NCBI RefSeq assembly: GCF_000186345.1
Contig: NC_014962.1
Span: 310,001-374,000, forward strand
DNA from: Isosphaera pallida ATCC 43644
GTDB lineage: Bacteria; Planctomycetota; Planctomycetia; Isosphaerales; Isosphaeraceae
Direction: 5' to 3'
DNA: 64,000 bases
Below the pieces are notes generated by a model, which ran no database searches, was not told the DNA's origin, and was given only the letters and a program-made list of their open reading frames with translations. Both the position numbers and the translations under genes were made by a program. Shown here one piece after another: positions 5,342 to 32,643 of the stretch (the first letter of the stretch is position 1; the number at the start of each line of letters is the position of its first letter).

Positions 5342-6087
5342 ACCCAAGTGGAATGGACACCCCCTCCCGCGGCGACTCCGCCACCCAGGGCGACTTCAAC
5401 CGCGATGCCGAGGCGATGACCTGGGTGGGCGAGGAGGTTGGTCTCAATCGCCTGCTAGGGCTCTACGACGTGCCGGCCTTCGCCCGACGCGGACAAGCCA
5501 CCGAGTCGGCCTTGGAGGCGTTCGAACGCGGCGTCCTGCGCGAGCGCGCCTTGAGGCTCAAAGAGGTTGTTCGTCGGCTCGACGAATGGCGTGACGCCGC
5601 ACGCTCCTTCGAGACCCTCGGACCCGACGAACTGGCCCGTCGGGCTGGCCTAAAGGTCCCCATCGAACCTTTGATCGCCGTGGTGGAGCAAGAGCTTCAA
5701 CGTCCTTCGGGCGTTTCGGCGGTCGCCTTGGCCCTGTCCCGCGGCGAGGCGGCCACTAACCGGCCTACGCCCACCCCTAAGCCCCCTCCAGAACCCGCCC
5801 CGTCCCAGGCCCGCGCTGGCTCCTGGAGCGGGCGGTTGCGGCTCCGCGCCCGGACCCGCGCGTTGCGGGCCGCCGTCGAACGGTTCAACCGCCTCTGGGA
5901 CATGTATCTTTCCTCGCTCGACCTGAGCGCGATCAATCAGATTGTCAACGATTATAACTCATACTACCTGCTTGAGAAAGAATGCGTCATGGGCAGCCGC
6001 CTGCTGGCCGGTCGGTTGTTTGAGCCGCTTGCGCCGTTGGAGGTCGAGACCCTGCGGCGACGGTTTCCACCTCTGCCAATGATTTGA
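5338..6087 (+). CDS. Soluble helical protein of unknown function, third gene of the operon
   Basis: 249 aa with no signal peptide and no membrane segment. The N-terminal half is helical and charged (residues about 30-135). A Pro-rich linker follows (PTPTPKPPPEP near 140-155). The C-terminal region, about 170-249, is basic at first and includes a Tyr/Asn-rich patch (NQIVNDYNSYYLLEKE). I recognise no family. The ATG at 5338 overlaps the upstream stop as ATGA, and this decides the start over an in-frame GTG at 5329. It is probably the cytoplasmic partner of the two membrane proteins before it. Confidence 0.75.
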   Translation: MNPSGMDTPSRGDSATQGDFNRDAEAMTWVGEEVGLNRLLGLYDVPAFARRGQATESALEAFERGVLRERALRLKEVVRRLDEWRDAARSFETLGPDELARRAGLKVPIEPLIAVVEQELQRPSGVSAVALALSRGEAATNRPTPTPKPPPEPAPSQARAGSWSGRLRLRARTRALRAAVERFNRLWDMYLSSLDLSAINQIVNDYNSYYLLEKECVMGSRLLAGRLFEPLAPLEVETLRRRFPPLPMI

Positions 6088-6171
6088 TATCTAATGTGTA
6101 TCTAAATTGACATGGGGTTGTTACGGGCGGAGCGTTTAGGCCGTTGCCACCTGACTGGCCGCCAACTCTCC

Positions 6172-6192
6172 GCCCGCGGCGTCGTCGCGGGC
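6172..6192. terminator. GC-rich hairpin between convergent genes
   Basis: GCCCGCG at 6172-6178 and CGCGGGC at 6186-6192 form a 7-bp stem with a 7-nt loop. It lies between the operon (plus, ending 6087) and sppA (minus, ending 6356), so it could serve both. There is no T-tract. Confidence 0.3.
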
Positions 6193-6355
6193 GTCGAACG
6201 TGAGGGAAAACGGGTGCGGCTGCATAGTCGTGCCGTGATGGTTCTCCGCGCCGAGTTGCTCGTTCCTGTGCTGTGGATTTTGCCGAGGAATGGGAGGGCG
6301 TGGACGAGGGTTGGGCAAGGTTGATCCTCGGCGGGTCGGGGTCGTCTTGATCCTC

Positions 6356-7495
6356 TCAACGGCTAAGCATCAGCAGCCGAGGGGCGAGCCAGTCGTCCAC
6401 TTGGGCGCGGCTGAGCGGGATCGGCATCGAACGGCCCTGGTCCCTTTGAGAAGCTGGAGCCCAAAGCGACAGGGACTCGTCTGGGTCGGGATGGGGGGAG
6501 GGCAGCCGCGAACCCAACTCCAGAAGTTCCAGCAAGGTGGCCAAGCTGTTGGGGGGAACGTAGCGGACCACCTGAGCCTCCTCCAACCGCGTCAGTTTGA
6601 GCAGGTGTCGTAGGGCGTCGTCTTGGTAGCCAAGAAAATCGACCAAACCGTTCTCCAGCGCCTCCTCGCCGCTGAAGATCGAGCCGTCGGCCAGTGGCTT
6701 GAGTTGAGAAAGCTCCATCTTGCGGCCCTGGGCGACGACTCGAAGGAAACGTTGATAGCTCTGGTCGATGGACTTGAGAAAACGTTGGCGTTCCTCGTTG
6801 GTAATCGGACGGTAAATCGAACCGGAGTCCTTGAATTTGCCAGTGGTCAGGGTGGCGAATTCGACCCCGATCTTGTCCAGCAGGCCGGAGATTTGCGGAA
6901 TCTCCAGAATGACCCCGATGGAGCCGGTGATGGTGGCAGGTTCGGCGAAGAGAGCGTCCCCAGCGCAGGCGATGTAGTATCCGCCCGAAGCGGCCCGGCT
7001 TCCCATCGAGACCACCACGGGTTTCCGTCCGACCAACCGGGTTTGCACATCGCGCCAGAGACGATCAGAGGCACTTACGGTGCCTCCCGGCGAGTCGATC
7101 CGCAGCAGGACCCCCTTGACACTGGAATCGAGCGACGCTTGGGTGATTTGCCGGCTGATCCCGTCGGCTTTGGAATCGTCAATTGATCCGGTGATTTCGA
7201 TAATCGCCAGCTTGGCTTTGCCTGGTCCGATCGGCCCGGCGACGTACTGTTCGCGGACCGCGTCGGGTATGGGCCCCAGACTGGCCGTCAACAGCGAAAC
7301 GTTGAGCAGCAGGGAAACCAACAACAATCCCCAAACCGCCCAACGCCAGGGCCAACCACGTCGTCCGCGTTCGAGAATGATCGTCGAGCCGCCCCCCAAA
7401 TTGGAGAACCGAAACGGCAAGGGGGGAAGGGGGCCACCCTGACCAGACTCGGGCGAGGGGTTGGAGTCGGGGGCGGACGGGGACGGCGAACTCAT
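6356..7495 (-). CDS. sppA: Signal peptide peptidase SppA, S49 family
   Basis: This is a membrane-anchored serine protease that cleaves remnant signal peptides. A Pro/Ser-rich cytoplasmic N-terminus leads to one membrane segment at about residues 50-72 (WRWAVWGLLLVSLLLNVSLL). The S49 domain follows, with the nucleophile Ser170 in RAASGGYY and the general base Lys222 in GKFKDSGS. At 379 aa with a single S49 domain it is the short type, as in Bacillus SppA, not the doubled E. coli form. The start ATG 7495 follows AAAGGACGAG. It is divergent from the ABC ATPase at 7692. Confidence 0.93.
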   Translation of the reverse strand: MSSPSPSAPDSNPSPESGQGGPLPPLPFRFSNLGGGSTIILERGRRGWPWRWAVWGLLLVSLLLNVSLLTASLGPIPDAVREQYVAGPIGPGKAKLAIIEITGSIDDSKADGISRQITQASLDSSVKGVLLRIDSPGGTVSASDRLWRDVQTRLVGRKPVVVSMGSRAASGGYYIACAGDALFAEPATITGSIGVILEIPQISGLLDKIGVEFATLTTGKFKDSGSIYRPITNEERQRFLKSIDQSYQRFLRVVAQGRKMELSQLKPLADGSIFSGEEALENGLVDFLGYQDDALRHLLKLTRLEEAQVVRYVPPNSLATLLELLELGSRLPSPHPDPDESLSLWAPASQRDQGRSMPIPLSRAQVDDWLAPRLLMLSR

Positions 7496-28073: not shown

Positions 28074-28958
28074 CTAGAGACCGGGTCGAGGGGTGATCGT
28101 GAGACGCAGCGTTTTGCCATCGCGGAGCAGTTCGACGGCGACGGGAGTTCCTGGCGCGGCGATGCGAGAGGCGGCTTCGTAGAGGTCGGCCACGTCGATC
28201 GTCCAGCGGCCGTCCAGAGAAGTGACCAGGTCGCCCACTTGAACGCCCGCTTCAGCCACCGCCGAGCCCGGCACCACCGAGGCTACCTTGACTCCCTGGA
28301 CTGGTGCGTCGTCTTCCAGCTCAGCGACGGTCCAACCCCACGCGCCCACCGGGTTGAGAACCCGTTCCAACGGCTTGCGGGAGCTGCCCAACGTCATCCG
28401 CGCTTCGATCGTGCTTGCAAGGTTCTTCGGCTCATTTGCAATCGGCTCCAGGGTCAAGGTTTTGGCTTGATAATCAATTGTGGAACGGTAACGGGCGAAG
28501 AAGGTGTAGCCAATGATCCCCTGGAGGGGCCGAAAGAAGGTGCTCAGCGCCTTGACGGCCGGGTGGTCCATCACGATCACCGGCAGGTTCTCCACCTTGG
28601 CCTCACCGACTTCCAAACGATCGACCTTGGCCTCGCCCCGCATCCCCATGAAGAGCGCCGGGCGATTGGTGTTTTTGATGACCCCGGCTTCCATGCCCGC
28701 CTTTGAACCAATGAGGGTAATCGGCGCGCCGACGTCGTAGAGCAGCCAGTAAGGGCCTTTGCCGTTGATCTTGGTCTGGATCACCATATGGTTAGATCCG
28801 AGAAGCACGAAGGGGACGGTGAACGTCTGCTTGGCCTCCTGAGCTTGGTTCTGGTTGGGAGTCGGCTCGTCGTGGCCATGCGAAGGGAGACCAAGACTCA
28901 GCGACAGGATCAGGCCGAGCGACAACGGCGCGATTCGTGAACAAAGCGACGTAGGCAT
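28074..28958 (-). CDS. Secreted retropepsin-like/PDZ protein with altered active site
   Basis: 294 aa. A signal peptide (LSLGLILSLSLGLPSHG) is followed by a retropepsin-like fold (about residues 45-190) with GPYWLLYDVGAPITLIG and LQGIIGYTFFARYRSTIDY. A C-terminal PDZ domain (about 205-290) has VVPGSAVAEAGVQVGDLVTSLDG. The catalytic Asp-Thr/Ser-Gly triplet of aspartic proteases reads Asp75-Val76-Gly77. The Asp is kept but the hydroxyl residue is lost, so activity is doubtful. It starts 3 bp after the stop of the next gene upstream, an intact paralogue. Confidence 0.85.
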   Translation of the reverse strand: MPTSLCSRIAPLSLGLILSLSLGLPSHGHDEPTPNQNQAQEAKQTFTVPFVLLGSNHMVIQTKINGKGPYWLLYDVGAPITLIGSKAGMEAGVIKNTNRPALFMGMRGEAKVDRLEVGEAKVENLPVIVMDHPAVKALSTFFRPLQGIIGYTFFARYRSTIDYQAKTLTLEPIANEPKNLASTIEARMTLGSSRKPLERVLNPVGAWGWTVAELEDDAPVQGVKVASVVPGSAVAEAGVQVGDLVTSLDGRWTIDVADLYEAASRIAAPGTPVAVELLRDGKTLRLTITPRPGL

Positions 28959-28961
28959 GGT

Positions 28962-29942
28962 TTAGAATCCCCGGGTGGCTTGAAGTTCGAGGTCGAGGGT
29001 CTGATCGCCCCGTTGGAGTTTGAGGGTGACTCGGCTGTTAGGGCGGATTGGGTCCAGAGCGCGTCGAGCTGCGTCGAAGTCGGCCACTCGCTGGTTGTTG
29101 ATTTCCAGAAGACGGTCCCCTGGTTGGATGCCAGCGGCCTGGGCCGGCGAATCAGGCCAGACGGCCGTAATAGTTAAAGGGGACGAGGGATCAGCCAACT
29201 CCAAACCGAGCGAACCGCGTTCCAGACGCTTTTCCTCGGGTTGCTTGCCGGTGAAGACACTCATGAGTTTCATCATCGGCCCAAACGCCTCCATCACCTT
29301 GAGTTCCGCCGGCACTTCGCGGGGTCGTTCGACCCCGGCAGACACAAAGGGGTCTCTAGGCTCGAAGTCCAAGCGGGTCCAGATCATGCGATCGGTGGTC
29401 GGGTCCATCGTGATGCGGAACCGCGCGAGCGCGGTAAAGCCGAGGATGCCGTCGATCGAGACTCCCGGCAGACCCATCGCGTTCATCCCCACCAACTGAT
29501 ACGGATCTTCAATTCGACAGGGGAGGTTTTCAAGGAACGGTCCCCCCTCGAAGTCGATACGGTTGATGGTGGTCCAAAACGAGGTCTTGGAGGGCTCCAG
29601 ACCGATCTTTTTGGCCGTCTCGGTCGAGACGACCACAATCGGCGCGCCCGTATCCACGAGAAAGTTGGAGGGGCCACGGCCGTTGATGCGGACGCGGACC
29701 AAAAAGTGGTTGGTGTCGCTCAGGCGATATGGAACCTGATAGGTCGTGCCGACTCCACGCTCCTTGGGATCGTTGTTGGAGGCCGCTCGGAGCAACTCCT
29801 GGGCCGGCGCGACCGCGGGAGGAGCAGCCTGGCCAGGTTGGAAGGCCAACAGCCAGGTGAGAGTCGCCAACAGGGTGGTTCGCGTGAGCCACCCAACCTG
29901 ACGAGGGAGGACAACGAGGGAGACCGGGAGGCAGCGCGTCAT
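28962..29942 (-). CDS. Secreted retropepsin-like aspartic protease with PDZ domain
   Basis: 326 aa. A signal-like N-terminus (TTLLATLTWLLAFQPGQAA) is followed by the retropepsin-like domain, with an intact Asp97-Thr98-Gly99 in NFLVDTGAPIVVVS and the later VSIDGILGFTALARFRITMD. A C-terminal PDZ domain has AVWPDSPAQAAGIQPGDRLLEIN. One such domain probably gives half an active site, so a dimer is expected, as in retroviral proteases. The ATG at 29942 follows GGAG. It forms a two-gene unit with the paralogue downstream. Confidence 0.88.
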   Translation of the reverse strand: MTRCLPVSLVVLPRQVGWLTRTTLLATLTWLLAFQPGQAAPPAVAPAQELLRAASNNDPKERGVGTTYQVPYRLSDTNHFLVRVRINGRGPSNFLVDTGAPIVVVSTETAKKIGLEPSKTSFWTTINRIDFEGGPFLENLPCRIEDPYQLVGMNAMGLPGVSIDGILGFTALARFRITMDPTTDRMIWTRLDFEPRDPFVSAGVERPREVPAELKVMEAFGPMMKLMSVFTGKQPEEKRLERGSLGLELADPSSPLTITAVWPDSPAQAAGIQPGDRLLEINNQRVADFDAARRALDPIRPNSRVTLKLQRGDQTLDLELQATRGF

Positions 29943-30303: not shown

Positions 30304-31329
30304 TCAGGCTTGTCGGGCCATGCGTTTGAGGACGACGCTGATTCCCAAAGCGACCGCGGCGAAGCCGAAGGCCCAGTAGGGCAAGGTGTTGGTGGGAGCG
30401 CCCGGGGGTTGCTCAACATCGCCCAGCCCATAGGCCGCCAGGGTGAACTCCGAGTCGGGGATCGGGTCGGTGGAGAGACGCTCCGCTTGGAAGCGGTATT
30501 CCTTTTTCCATATCTCCTTGCTTGACTGAAAAAAAGTCTCTACACAAACTACTTCTTGAGGCAAAGAAACTTGGTTTTCATCAAATTCGTATATGCTATT
30601 GCCTTGATAATTATAATTTGCACCATCAACAGTGTCTGTAAAGTTATATTCACATACAGAATATTTGTTTTTTGGATCGAAATTCACCCAACCGCGAATC
30701 CTTGATGTTTTGCCAGGTCTGCTTCGGTCGTAATCAAACTCAACTTGTACTCGAGTATTACCATTTTTATTTATCCTTTCAATTTTAATAAACCTAAATT
30801 CGCTTGATTCAATCATTAATGATACTGGTAATCCTGCAAGTGTATATGGTGTATCCACTGAGAAGGTAAGGTAAGGAGACGCCAATTGCGAACGTTTTGC
30901 TTTCGAATCCGGGATAACAAGCTCCTGGATTCGGTAAGCTTCCTTAGGAGAGTTCCTTACGAGACTAAAGTTCCGATCGCACCCGAGAACAGTCACCGAT
31001 CCTACGGATATTTTTTGATTTTCTAAATCCTTTTCTTCAAGAATGATTCTTTCTCTTCCATTCACCAATGAATAAGCAATATGGGTTTCGTCTCTGCTTT
31101 CCGAGCTTCCACTTTGGTCGGTTCTATATTGCGACATCGTTCCTTCGATGTGGATAATCGAGTTGGCAGTTTGATATTGCTTGACGGCTTCTCGATACTC
31201 TTGGAGGAATTTCTCTGGGGAAAGATCATCCACAGCAAAGCAGGGATGATCAGCTACCCAGAAAAGCAGAAGCAAGGCCGCACAGAGAGGGTGGTGGAAT
31301 CGGGGAATCATGGTCTCGATCAACCTCAT
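30304..31329 (-). CDS. Secreted, tail-anchored protein of the AT-rich island
   Basis: 341 aa, no recognised family. A signal peptide (FHHPLCAALLLLFWVADHPCFA) leads to a beta-rich domain of about 260 residues. The C-terminus has Pro-rich spacing, a TM (YWAFGFAAVALGISVVL) and a basic end (KRMARQA), a tripartite sorting-like tail. Base composition is striking: from about 30500 to 31200 the coding sequence is AT-rich, with codons such as AAT, ATA, TTT and GAA. The last 65 codons, including the tail, are as GC-rich as the neighbours. The boundary suggests a mosaic or imported body joined to a resident tail. The cysteine-rich peptide gene lies just upstream on the same strand. Confidence 0.75.
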   Translation of the reverse strand: MRLIETMIPRFHHPLCAALLLLFWVADHPCFAVDDLSPEKFLQEYREAVKQYQTANSIIHIEGTMSQYRTDQSGSSESRDETHIAYSLVNGRERIILEEKDLENQKISVGSVTVLGCDRNFSLVRNSPKEAYRIQELVIPDSKAKRSQLASPYLTFSVDTPYTLAGLPVSLMIESSEFRFIKIERINKNGNTRVQVEFDYDRSRPGKTSRIRGWVNFDPKNKYSVCEYNFTDTVDGANYNYQGNSIYEFDENQVSLPQEVVCVETFFQSSKEIWKKEYRFQAERLSTDPIPDSEFTLAAYGLGDVEQPPGAPTNTLPYWAFGFAAVALGISVVLKRMARQA

Positions 31330-31457
31330 TGAGTAGGCGTTGGTGAGGATGGCATGGTTCTCTGTTGCAGCCTTGCCAAACAGAATAAACTCGATTACCG
31401 ATTTTACAATAGTTTATAAAATAGATAATCGTTGTGTTTACTCCGTATAATTGCTAA
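31330..31457 (-). promoter_or_regulatory. AT-rich spacer between the two island genes
   Basis: About 128 bp, strongly AT-rich near 31380-31457 with repeated TTTAT/ATAAAAT stretches. It is a plausible promoter region for the gene starting at 31329, but no single -10/-35 pair stands out. Confidence 0.3.
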
Positions 31458-31769
31458 TTATTTACATTCACAGTCGCCGGTTGTAAGATCGCGTTCGCAC
31501 TTGCAGTTAAAACAGGGTGTCGCAGCTCCGTTTTTAACGCAGTAAGCATTGCCGATAGATTTGCATTTTCCGGAACCGACACCATTGCGAGCACCATTCG
31601 TGCCATTCGGAGGACAGCCATCACACCTGAGAGGAACCGGGGTAGGGTCGATCGGATCGTCGGCCAGGGCGGTGCTAGCGAAGGCGAGCAGGCCCACCGC
31701 CATCGCCACCAGGCCCAGGCTGGCGAACAGGGCCGAGGTCAGTTGACAAAACTGCGAACGCATCGTCAT
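31458..31769 (-). CDS. Small secreted cysteine-rich protein
   Basis: 103 aa. A long signal peptide (LFASLGLVAMAVGLLAFASTALAD) is followed by a mature part of about 67 residues with nine cysteines in pairs and clusters: RCDGC, GKC, AYC, PCFNCKC and DCEC. This is an odd number, so one may pair between chains or bind metal. I recognise no family. The ATG at 31769 has GGAGG four bases upstream. A second ATG lies at 31763. The signal-peptide half is GC-rich and the cysteine-rich half is AT-rich, a second internal composition boundary. It sits between a DUF1573 remnant and the tail-anchored protein. Confidence 0.75.
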   Translation of the reverse strand: MTMRSQFCQLTSALFASLGLVAMAVGLLAFASTALADDPIDPTPVPLRCDGCPPNGTNGARNGVGSGKCKSIGNAYCVKNGAATPCFNCKCERDLTTGDCECK

Positions 31770-31854
31770 TGCTCCTCCGTCGGTTCACGCCTTCTCGGAT
31801 TTCGCTACGTCGGACGAACCGACATGGCGAACGGGATCACACGCGTGAGATTCG

Positions 31855-32112
31855 TTATCTCTTGACTTGTTGGCCGTCTCTGGCTCTCACTTCACCGGTG
31901 ACGGTAAGACTCAGTTCGACCTGAGACGGAATGTTTGTGTAGACCGTGATTGGATAAGAATCGCCTTCTACCTCCTCGTCAGGAAGGTGGATCACCACCC
32001 GGAACTCCCCGGTTTCCCCCGGAGCGATGCTGAAGGGAACATCTCGCGGAGTCGTGCAAGCGCAGCCCGCCCAGGCTCCGACGATCCGACACGGCTGGCT
32101 CCCGTCAGGACG
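31855..32112 (-). pseudogene. DUF1573 domain remnant, 5' end lost
   Basis: Reading the minus strand from 32112 to the TAA at 31855-31857 gives about 85 codons with a clear DUF1573-like pattern: PCRIVGAWAGCACT, FSIAPGETGEFRVVI, YPITVYTNIPSQVELSLTV. The frame is closed just upstream by TAG at 32113-32115 and by a further stop about 25 bp beyond. It has no ATG start, so the N-terminal part is missing or shifted. It lies 85 bp upstream of the cysteine-rich peptide gene on the same strand. The family match is by eye. A frameshift or a non-standard start is an alternative to decay. Confidence 0.5.
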
Positions 32113-32643
32113 CTACCCAGAACGATTCTTACGACGTCAAAATAGGAAATTTGGGATTGGTTTTTTTCATTGATGCCGTCTTCAATCATCTTGTCGCTGG
32201 AGTTGACCGCACGGTTGACCAACCCCCATTCGAGAGTGCGTTCCCCCACTCCCTTCTGTCAAGAGCATTCCGTTCGTCGATCAAAAATTATCCGACGCCC
32301 TTGAGTGGTTGAGGTCGGCGTTGAGGGGCCGTTCAAGAAAAGGGGACCGATTCAGCGATTCGTGGCGAGATTGTGCCCAAAAGTTCGCGGAAACCAGGGG
32401 GTCGGGACGCGCTCGGGACGCGAGCGGGTCCGAGTTTGGACAAAACGAGAAAGAAACGCGCGGGACGATCGTTGTTCCGGAAGAGACCACGGTGGGCGCG
32501 TCATCTTGCGTGATGGCGTGACGTTCGCCTGGTGGTTGGTGAGCGTTCGCGTTATGCCGTCCACCGGGCTGCTTCGGCGGGGTTCTCCAATTGGGTTTGT
32601 GGTCGTTTCGCATGTTCCTAACGCTCCTGGGAGATCATGGGTT
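32113..32643. other. Region between the island and the VIT/VWA gene
   Basis: About 530 bp. A minus-strand frame at 31992-32249 overlaps the DUF1573 remnant in another phase and has no support. The 32113-32280 part is moderately AT-rich like the island. The rest matches the chromosome and should carry the promoter for the gene at 32644. Confidence 0.35.

Follow-up and report, generated by a model that had tools for sequence, protein, structure and literature searches.

Planctomycetes have large genomes that are full of unassigned genes, and one locus of Isosphaera pallida raises the question of whether two such genes are exchanged together as a segment. The locus lies in a 64-kb stretch of DNA that was analysed whole (the window, in whose positions all features below are given unless a locus or contig is named). 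An earlier sequence-only reading had proposed a cassette in a clearly AT-rich stretch, made up of a DUF1573 fragment, a nine-Cys secreted peptide and a secreted protein with a membrane segment and a basic tail, in which the surface-exposed parts are swapped and the resident targeting ends are kept.

A low-GC island with both breaks in coding sequence

All three units were recovered on the minus strand, as described: a DUF1573 remnant (~31861..32100), the gene for a Cys-rich secreted peptide of 103 aa (31458..31769, from its ORF and the family alignment) and the gene for a 341-aa protein, here called the partner (30304..31329, from its ORF, the family alignment and a structural model). A two-changepoint fit placed a low-GC segment at 30496..31570 (no strand assigned), with GC of 40.6% versus 61.2% outside and a log-likelihood gain of 67.7. 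This variable segment takes in the later part of the mature peptide, the spacer and the partner's signal peptide and body: it begins inside the mature-peptide coding part and stops shortly before the partner's C-terminal anchor. Across the 64-kb window (mean GC 62.2%, SD 3.1%), the island was the only place where 1-kb stretches fell below 47% GC, and it also held the minimum (40.5%), which confirms that the stretch is clearly AT-rich.

The breaks, both of which had been placed within genes, were also found at fourfold-degenerate third positions. In the peptide gene, the signal-peptide half (~31662-31769, minus strand) had GC at 23/25 such sites and the mature half (~31461-31661, minus strand) at 17/34 (Fisher p = 7e-4), the cleavage site being judged by eye from an AxA motif. 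In the gene of the 341-aa protein, GC stood at 37/107 fourfold sites of the body but at 33/39 of those in the final 64-71 codons (p = 6e-8), and these codons correspond to a GC-rich, conserved 3' end (30304..30498, minus strand) that encodes an FTLAAYGL motif and the anchor. The GC of the body lay 6.3 SD under that of 37 coding chunks of equal size taken from the window. With both breaks holding at fourfold sites and the body so far from the other coding chunks, the composition island is real and far beyond chance. The described junction of a GC-rich signal half with an AT-rich Cys-rich half was found as a compositional break, but the sharpest 5' break lies ~30 codons into the mature part.

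Recurrence of the peptide and partner genes

Protein searches followed by family-profile searches found exactly five peptides and five partner proteins in the I. pallida genome, and they formed five adjacent pairs out of five. In relatives, a secreted Cys-rich peptide was encoded upstream of 53 of 83 partners versus 4 of 277 other long ORFs from the same loci; the 83 are those partners from the first 65 loci fetched for this protein whose upstream sequence was long enough. Linked recurrence was the check that the sequence-only reading had set for itself, and on these counts it is almost certain that peptide and partner make up a linked planctomycete family. The common gene order in the ~100 loci that were read was DUF1573, a small Cys-rich signal-peptide protein and the partner, often with DUF1559 in Isosphaeraceae.

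A 30-sequence profile detected the partner family in at least 114 of 398 Planctomycetia genomes (75 of 186 genera), a lower bound because few candidates were scored per genome. A sample of 392 genomes from across the phylum gave 13 partner matches, all 13 in Planctomycetia and none outside that class. No paper linking DUF1559 with DUF1573, or describing such cassettes, was found in the open-access literature, and the two-gene cassette is apparently undescribed so far.

Several copies are damaged. Locus L011 retains DUF1559, DUF1573, peptide and partner, while the I. pallida cassette locus L014 has in-frame stops in both peptide and partner, and at L013 the partner gene is frameshifted in its 5' part. 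Together with the truncated DUF1573 of the window, these lesions indicate that the cassette family turns over and decays often. As a separate observation, the orthologous locus of two genomes of one genus (L091 and L098, flanks 90-91% identical) has one copy that lacks the peptide and DUF1559 and whose partner is anchorless, a cassette caught in decay.

Peptide and partner families

With nine Cys, the mature part of the window peptide has an odd number, and it ends in CxxCxC...CxC. The mature parts of 50 peptides contained a mean of 9.7 Cys, with an even count in 40/50. A CxC near the C-terminus was present in 39/50 peptides (12 expected after shuffling) and a CxC...CxC ending in 22/50 (2.8 expected). 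In the family alignment, five or six Cys columns are kept and near-invariant, and the loops between them are hypervariable. From this Cys pattern across 50 peptides we predict that the family is of the disulfide-bonded type. A kept leader, a kept Cys scaffold and hypervariable mature loops are also seen in conotoxin-like and mollusc CRP peptides; the likeness is one of resemblance only, since the cassette peptides are bacterial, paired with a partner and varied by segment replacement.

With a mean net charge of -2.9 (n=50), the mature peptides are acidic, which sets them apart from most membrane-active antimicrobial peptides; they lack the net positive charge of a cationic antimicrobial peptide. 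One weak match to a solved structure (E=0.07) was taken as chance. An AlphaFold2 model of the peptide was confident in the signal helix alone, and with a pLDDT of ~50-70 in the mature part it was set aside.

The partner has a signal peptide, a body, a conserved FTLxxxGL motif, a C-terminal membrane helix and a short basic tail. Its AlphaFold2 model, built with the family alignment (pLDDT 87, pTM 0.78), shows a helix and a curved sheet followed by the membrane helix (residues 318-340, ~30310-30378, minus strand). Foldseek gave DUF1329, LolA and EPDR1 as best matches, with E of 1e-5 to 1e-3 and a probability of ~1 but low TM scores of about 0.2-0.5. Going by this model, we read the body as a LolA-like half-barrel that probably lies in the periplasm, tethered by its C-terminus. 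The predicted helix and curved beta half-barrel resemble those of LolA/LolB and the EPDR1/DUF1329 superfamily, from which the partner differs in its low TM scores, its C-terminal membrane anchor, its hypervariable body and the absence of a Pfam match. The secreted protein with a membrane segment and basic tail was correctly described, but with a signal peptide and one C-terminal membrane helix it is not a classical tail-anchored protein. Neither family had a match above cut-off in Pfam or NCBIfam, and no toxin domain was found there, in agreement with the sequence-only reading, which could name no family for the two proteins.

Kept ends and replaced middles among relatives

Units from the same genome were compared at the DNA level in six genomes from four families. 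The signal-peptide end was 87-100% identical and the anchor end 79-100%, and between them the mature peptide and the partner body, the latter over its first half or more, were unalignable or far less alike. The tandem units of L134, from the metagenome-assembled Pirellulaceae bacterium KatS3mg110, are identical (100%) over ~390 bp that reach from DUF1573 through the upstream region to the middle of the signal peptide; identity drops to ~45-75% over ~1 kb, where the mature peptide, the spacer and the beginning of the partner body lie, and returns to 100% over ~450 bp on the 3' side. At L095, 94.7% identity over 152 bp is followed by ~1.25 kb of unalignable sequence and 85.6% over 187 bp at the anchor end. 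The units of L138 and L179, on different contigs, are 99.1% identical in the signal end and 87.5% in the anchor end, with an unalignable mature part between. L131, L180, L137/L177 and L173/L174 have the same kept ends and replaced middle, and one pair alone, within L137, is conserved throughout. The clearest of these DNA-level cases come from draft or metagenome-assembled genomes.

An unrelated or distant middle between near-identical ends points to segment replacement, and from these alignments we hold with high confidence that it takes place in relatives. Homologous recombination through the two ends would be the simplest mechanism. The pattern also weighs against a rival account, in which an ordinary fast-evolving pair happens to lie in a horizontally acquired AT-rich island and no exchange between kept ends occurs in this lineage. 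Point mutation cannot produce flanks of 98-100% around a middle of ~45-75% or less, as at L134, L180 and L137/L177, and the two breaks of the window are equivalent in position to the breaks seen in relatives. That account agrees with the lower GC of the variable parts as a family tendency, and with the finding that no I. pallida paralogue shares ends with the window cassette at the DNA level; overall we consider it very improbable.

Distances between members of the family were consistent with a kept anchor end. Anchor-end distances followed DUF1573 distances (rho 0.31, p = 0.002), and partner-body distances did not (rho 0.03, p = 0.31), a result to which saturation may contribute. The replaced block covers both peptide and partner body. 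The correlation of peptide with body distances was weak (rho 0.13) and no higher than that of peptide with anchor distances, so specific co-variation of the two was not demonstrated, and adjacency alone could explain their joint exchange.

Probable exchange in the window copy

The proposal that the middle is swapped and the targeting ends are kept was seen directly in DNA from the six other genomes, but for the window copy it is drawn from composition. The low-GC segment of the window sits where relatives have the replaced segment, and among the I. pallida cassettes the island is the most extreme case in GC. The variable parts tend, however, to be lower in GC throughout the class: mature halves lie below signal halves (n = 75, p = 1e-6) and bodies below the anchor ends (n = 131, p = 1e-6), both without correction for relatedness. 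Since this is a family-wide tendency, a composition break is weaker evidence of exchange than the sequence-only reading held.

The fourfold GC of the five I. pallida partner bodies ranges from 0.37 to 0.78, as expected if the segments differ in origin and arrived at different times. Mutational bias of fast-evolving segments would likewise lower GC, and for this reason exchange in the window copy is likely rather than established. A DNA search of the I. pallida genome found no donor for the island, and a single-protein query of the genome collection for a sister allele of the cassette matched its own genome alone.

DUF1573 and DUF1559 genes of the cassette

The remnant upstream of the peptide gene keeps the C-terminal half of DUF1573 with its CxC motif (GCAC) and has lost the N-terminal half; the frame upstream of it is broken. 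A profile made from the paralogue loci matched it over positions 88-165 only (E=3.1e-31, the remnant itself being among the model's four sequences). We regard the fragment as a true DUF1573 gene of the operon that has decayed, and as no chance neighbour. Against the Pfam family PF07610 (cut-off 26.1 bits), the DUF1573 of L013 scored 38.5 and that of L011 25.2, just under the cut-off.

A motif listing showed CxC in 41 of 55 DUF1573 members, and a UGC selenoprotein motif has been reported for the family (PMC9312934). Taken together, the two motifs suggest that DUF1573 may act as a thiol-redox helper for the peptide. The DUF1573 gene is the upstream one of the cassette operon, and its product shares with PF07610 and its selenoprotein members a CxC motif followed by LPxxIxPG; the cassette members differ in being membrane-anchored, and the window copy in being truncated.

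DUF1559 genes were found near L011, L013 and L014, and near L012 on the other strand, but a motif scan of the whole 64-kb window detected no DUF1559 prepilin gene. Genes for DUF1559 pseudopilins, on which the sequence-only reading was silent, adjoin many Isosphaeraceae loci and were seldom detected at loci outside that family. At L013 (the C2:648000 region), the 3' frame of the partner continues without a stop into a DUF1559 prepilin, which suggests fusion or read-through. Two genomes of one genus (L061 and L069) have DUF1559 genes that are 83% identical at the N-terminal end only, and L061 carries a second partner gene after DUF1559; a recombination point inside DUF1559 is possible.

The cassette might be tied to these neighbouring pseudopilins or to the protein-rich planctomycete envelope. 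The same cassette and exchange could then yield variable envelope or surface components, diversified against phages or predators. Planctomycete cell walls are known to hold disulfide-rich YTV proteins (PMC8567305), and the acidity, kept scaffold and variable loops of the peptide would suit an exposed part. Surface exposure by itself, however, needs no swap of a separate partner, partner genes that lack a peptide are common, and DUF1559 is seldom detected at loci outside Isosphaeraceae and is absent at the window locus. We judge this role unlikely.

Proposed mechanism and function

We propose that the island is one of five I. pallida copies of a planctomycete-wide operon of DUF1573, peptide and LolA-fold partner, often with DUF1559 in Isosphaeraceae. 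In relatives, the replaced segment begins inside the peptide gene and takes in most of the partner body; the 5' signal-peptide end and the 3' anchor end would serve homologous recombination or gene conversion, and the AT-rich stretch of the window would be a swapped-in segment of low-GC origin. The Sec system would export the peptide, the CxC-bearing DUF1573 protein would aid its disulfide formation, and the anchored partner would recognise its own peptide in the periplasm. If so, peptide and partner would have to be exchanged together. Read loosely, the whole chain of operon, swap and effector with cognate partner has in our judgement an even chance of being right.

The likeliest role, which we put forward tentatively, is that of a polymorphic effector that is secreted and has its cognate immunity or binding protein in the partner. 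It is suggested by the logic of the exchange, the linked partner and the surplus partner genes, which resemble what has been described for polymorphic toxin cassettes and polyimmunity loci (PMC3482391). As in the CDI, Rhs and related systems of that description, a constant trafficking end adjoins an exchangeable effector part (six genomes) and extra partner genes occur in strings; the downstream gene may likewise be swapped along with the effector part as its cognate. Partners without a detectable peptide numbered 30 of 88. Peptides were called by simple rules of length, hydrophobic N-terminus and Cys content; few-Cys peptides were therefore missed, and some of these partners may have one. At L136, one peptide gene is accompanied by four partner genes with shared ends of 84-294 bp at 82-99% identity. 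L133, which lies on the sole contig of its genome, has three partners and zero peptides, and the anchor ends of these partners are kept (90-94%) with more divergent bodies.

The cassette differs from CDI and Rhs systems in that its effector part is a peptide of ~36-118 residues, predicted to be disulfide-rich, with a plain signal peptide and no known toxin domain, in that the partner gene contributes a second end that is kept, and in having a membrane-tethered, putatively LolA-fold protein as partner. A planctomycete-specific system of conflict or self-recognition, with a two-gene core exchanged by recombination between kept ends and the DUF1573 redox protein as dedicated folding helper, is a reading that we hold at somewhat under an even chance.

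A small secreted peptide beside a membrane-tethered binder, swapped together, could also be a signal and its receptor that serve self-recognition or quorum-like sensing and are exchanged as matched pairs. I. pallida forms gliding filaments and phototactic comets (PMC3072084), a way of life in which such signals might have a place. The cytoplasmic side of the partner is, however, a short basic tail with no signalling domain, and no recurring kinase or regulator was noticed in an unsystematic look at the neighbourhoods; a signal-receptor pair is accordingly rather improbable.

Two unannotated families and a DUF would gain a shared, testable setting as a widespread, fast-diversifying system of peptides and partners. 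Should these prove to be effectors with immunity proteins, they would form a polymorphic conflict system based on disulfide-rich peptides and not on large toxins, and also a natural library in which folded Cys-rich peptides come with matched binders.

Flanking sequences

A 118-bp element at the break of the DUF1573 remnant (32106..32223, no strand assigned) was identified by a genome-wide DNA match. Its one other genomic match (C2:87061-87177, 89% identity) lies ~2.8 kb upstream of another cassette, and the element is possibly a recombination scar; no hairpin structure was found in it. Directly downstream of the window cassette are two adjacent genes for secreted aspartyl-protease plus PDZ proteins (28074-28958 and 28962-29942). 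At L064, an ORF that appears transposase-like by eye (5666-6511 of that locus) lies between DUF1573 and the peptide gene.
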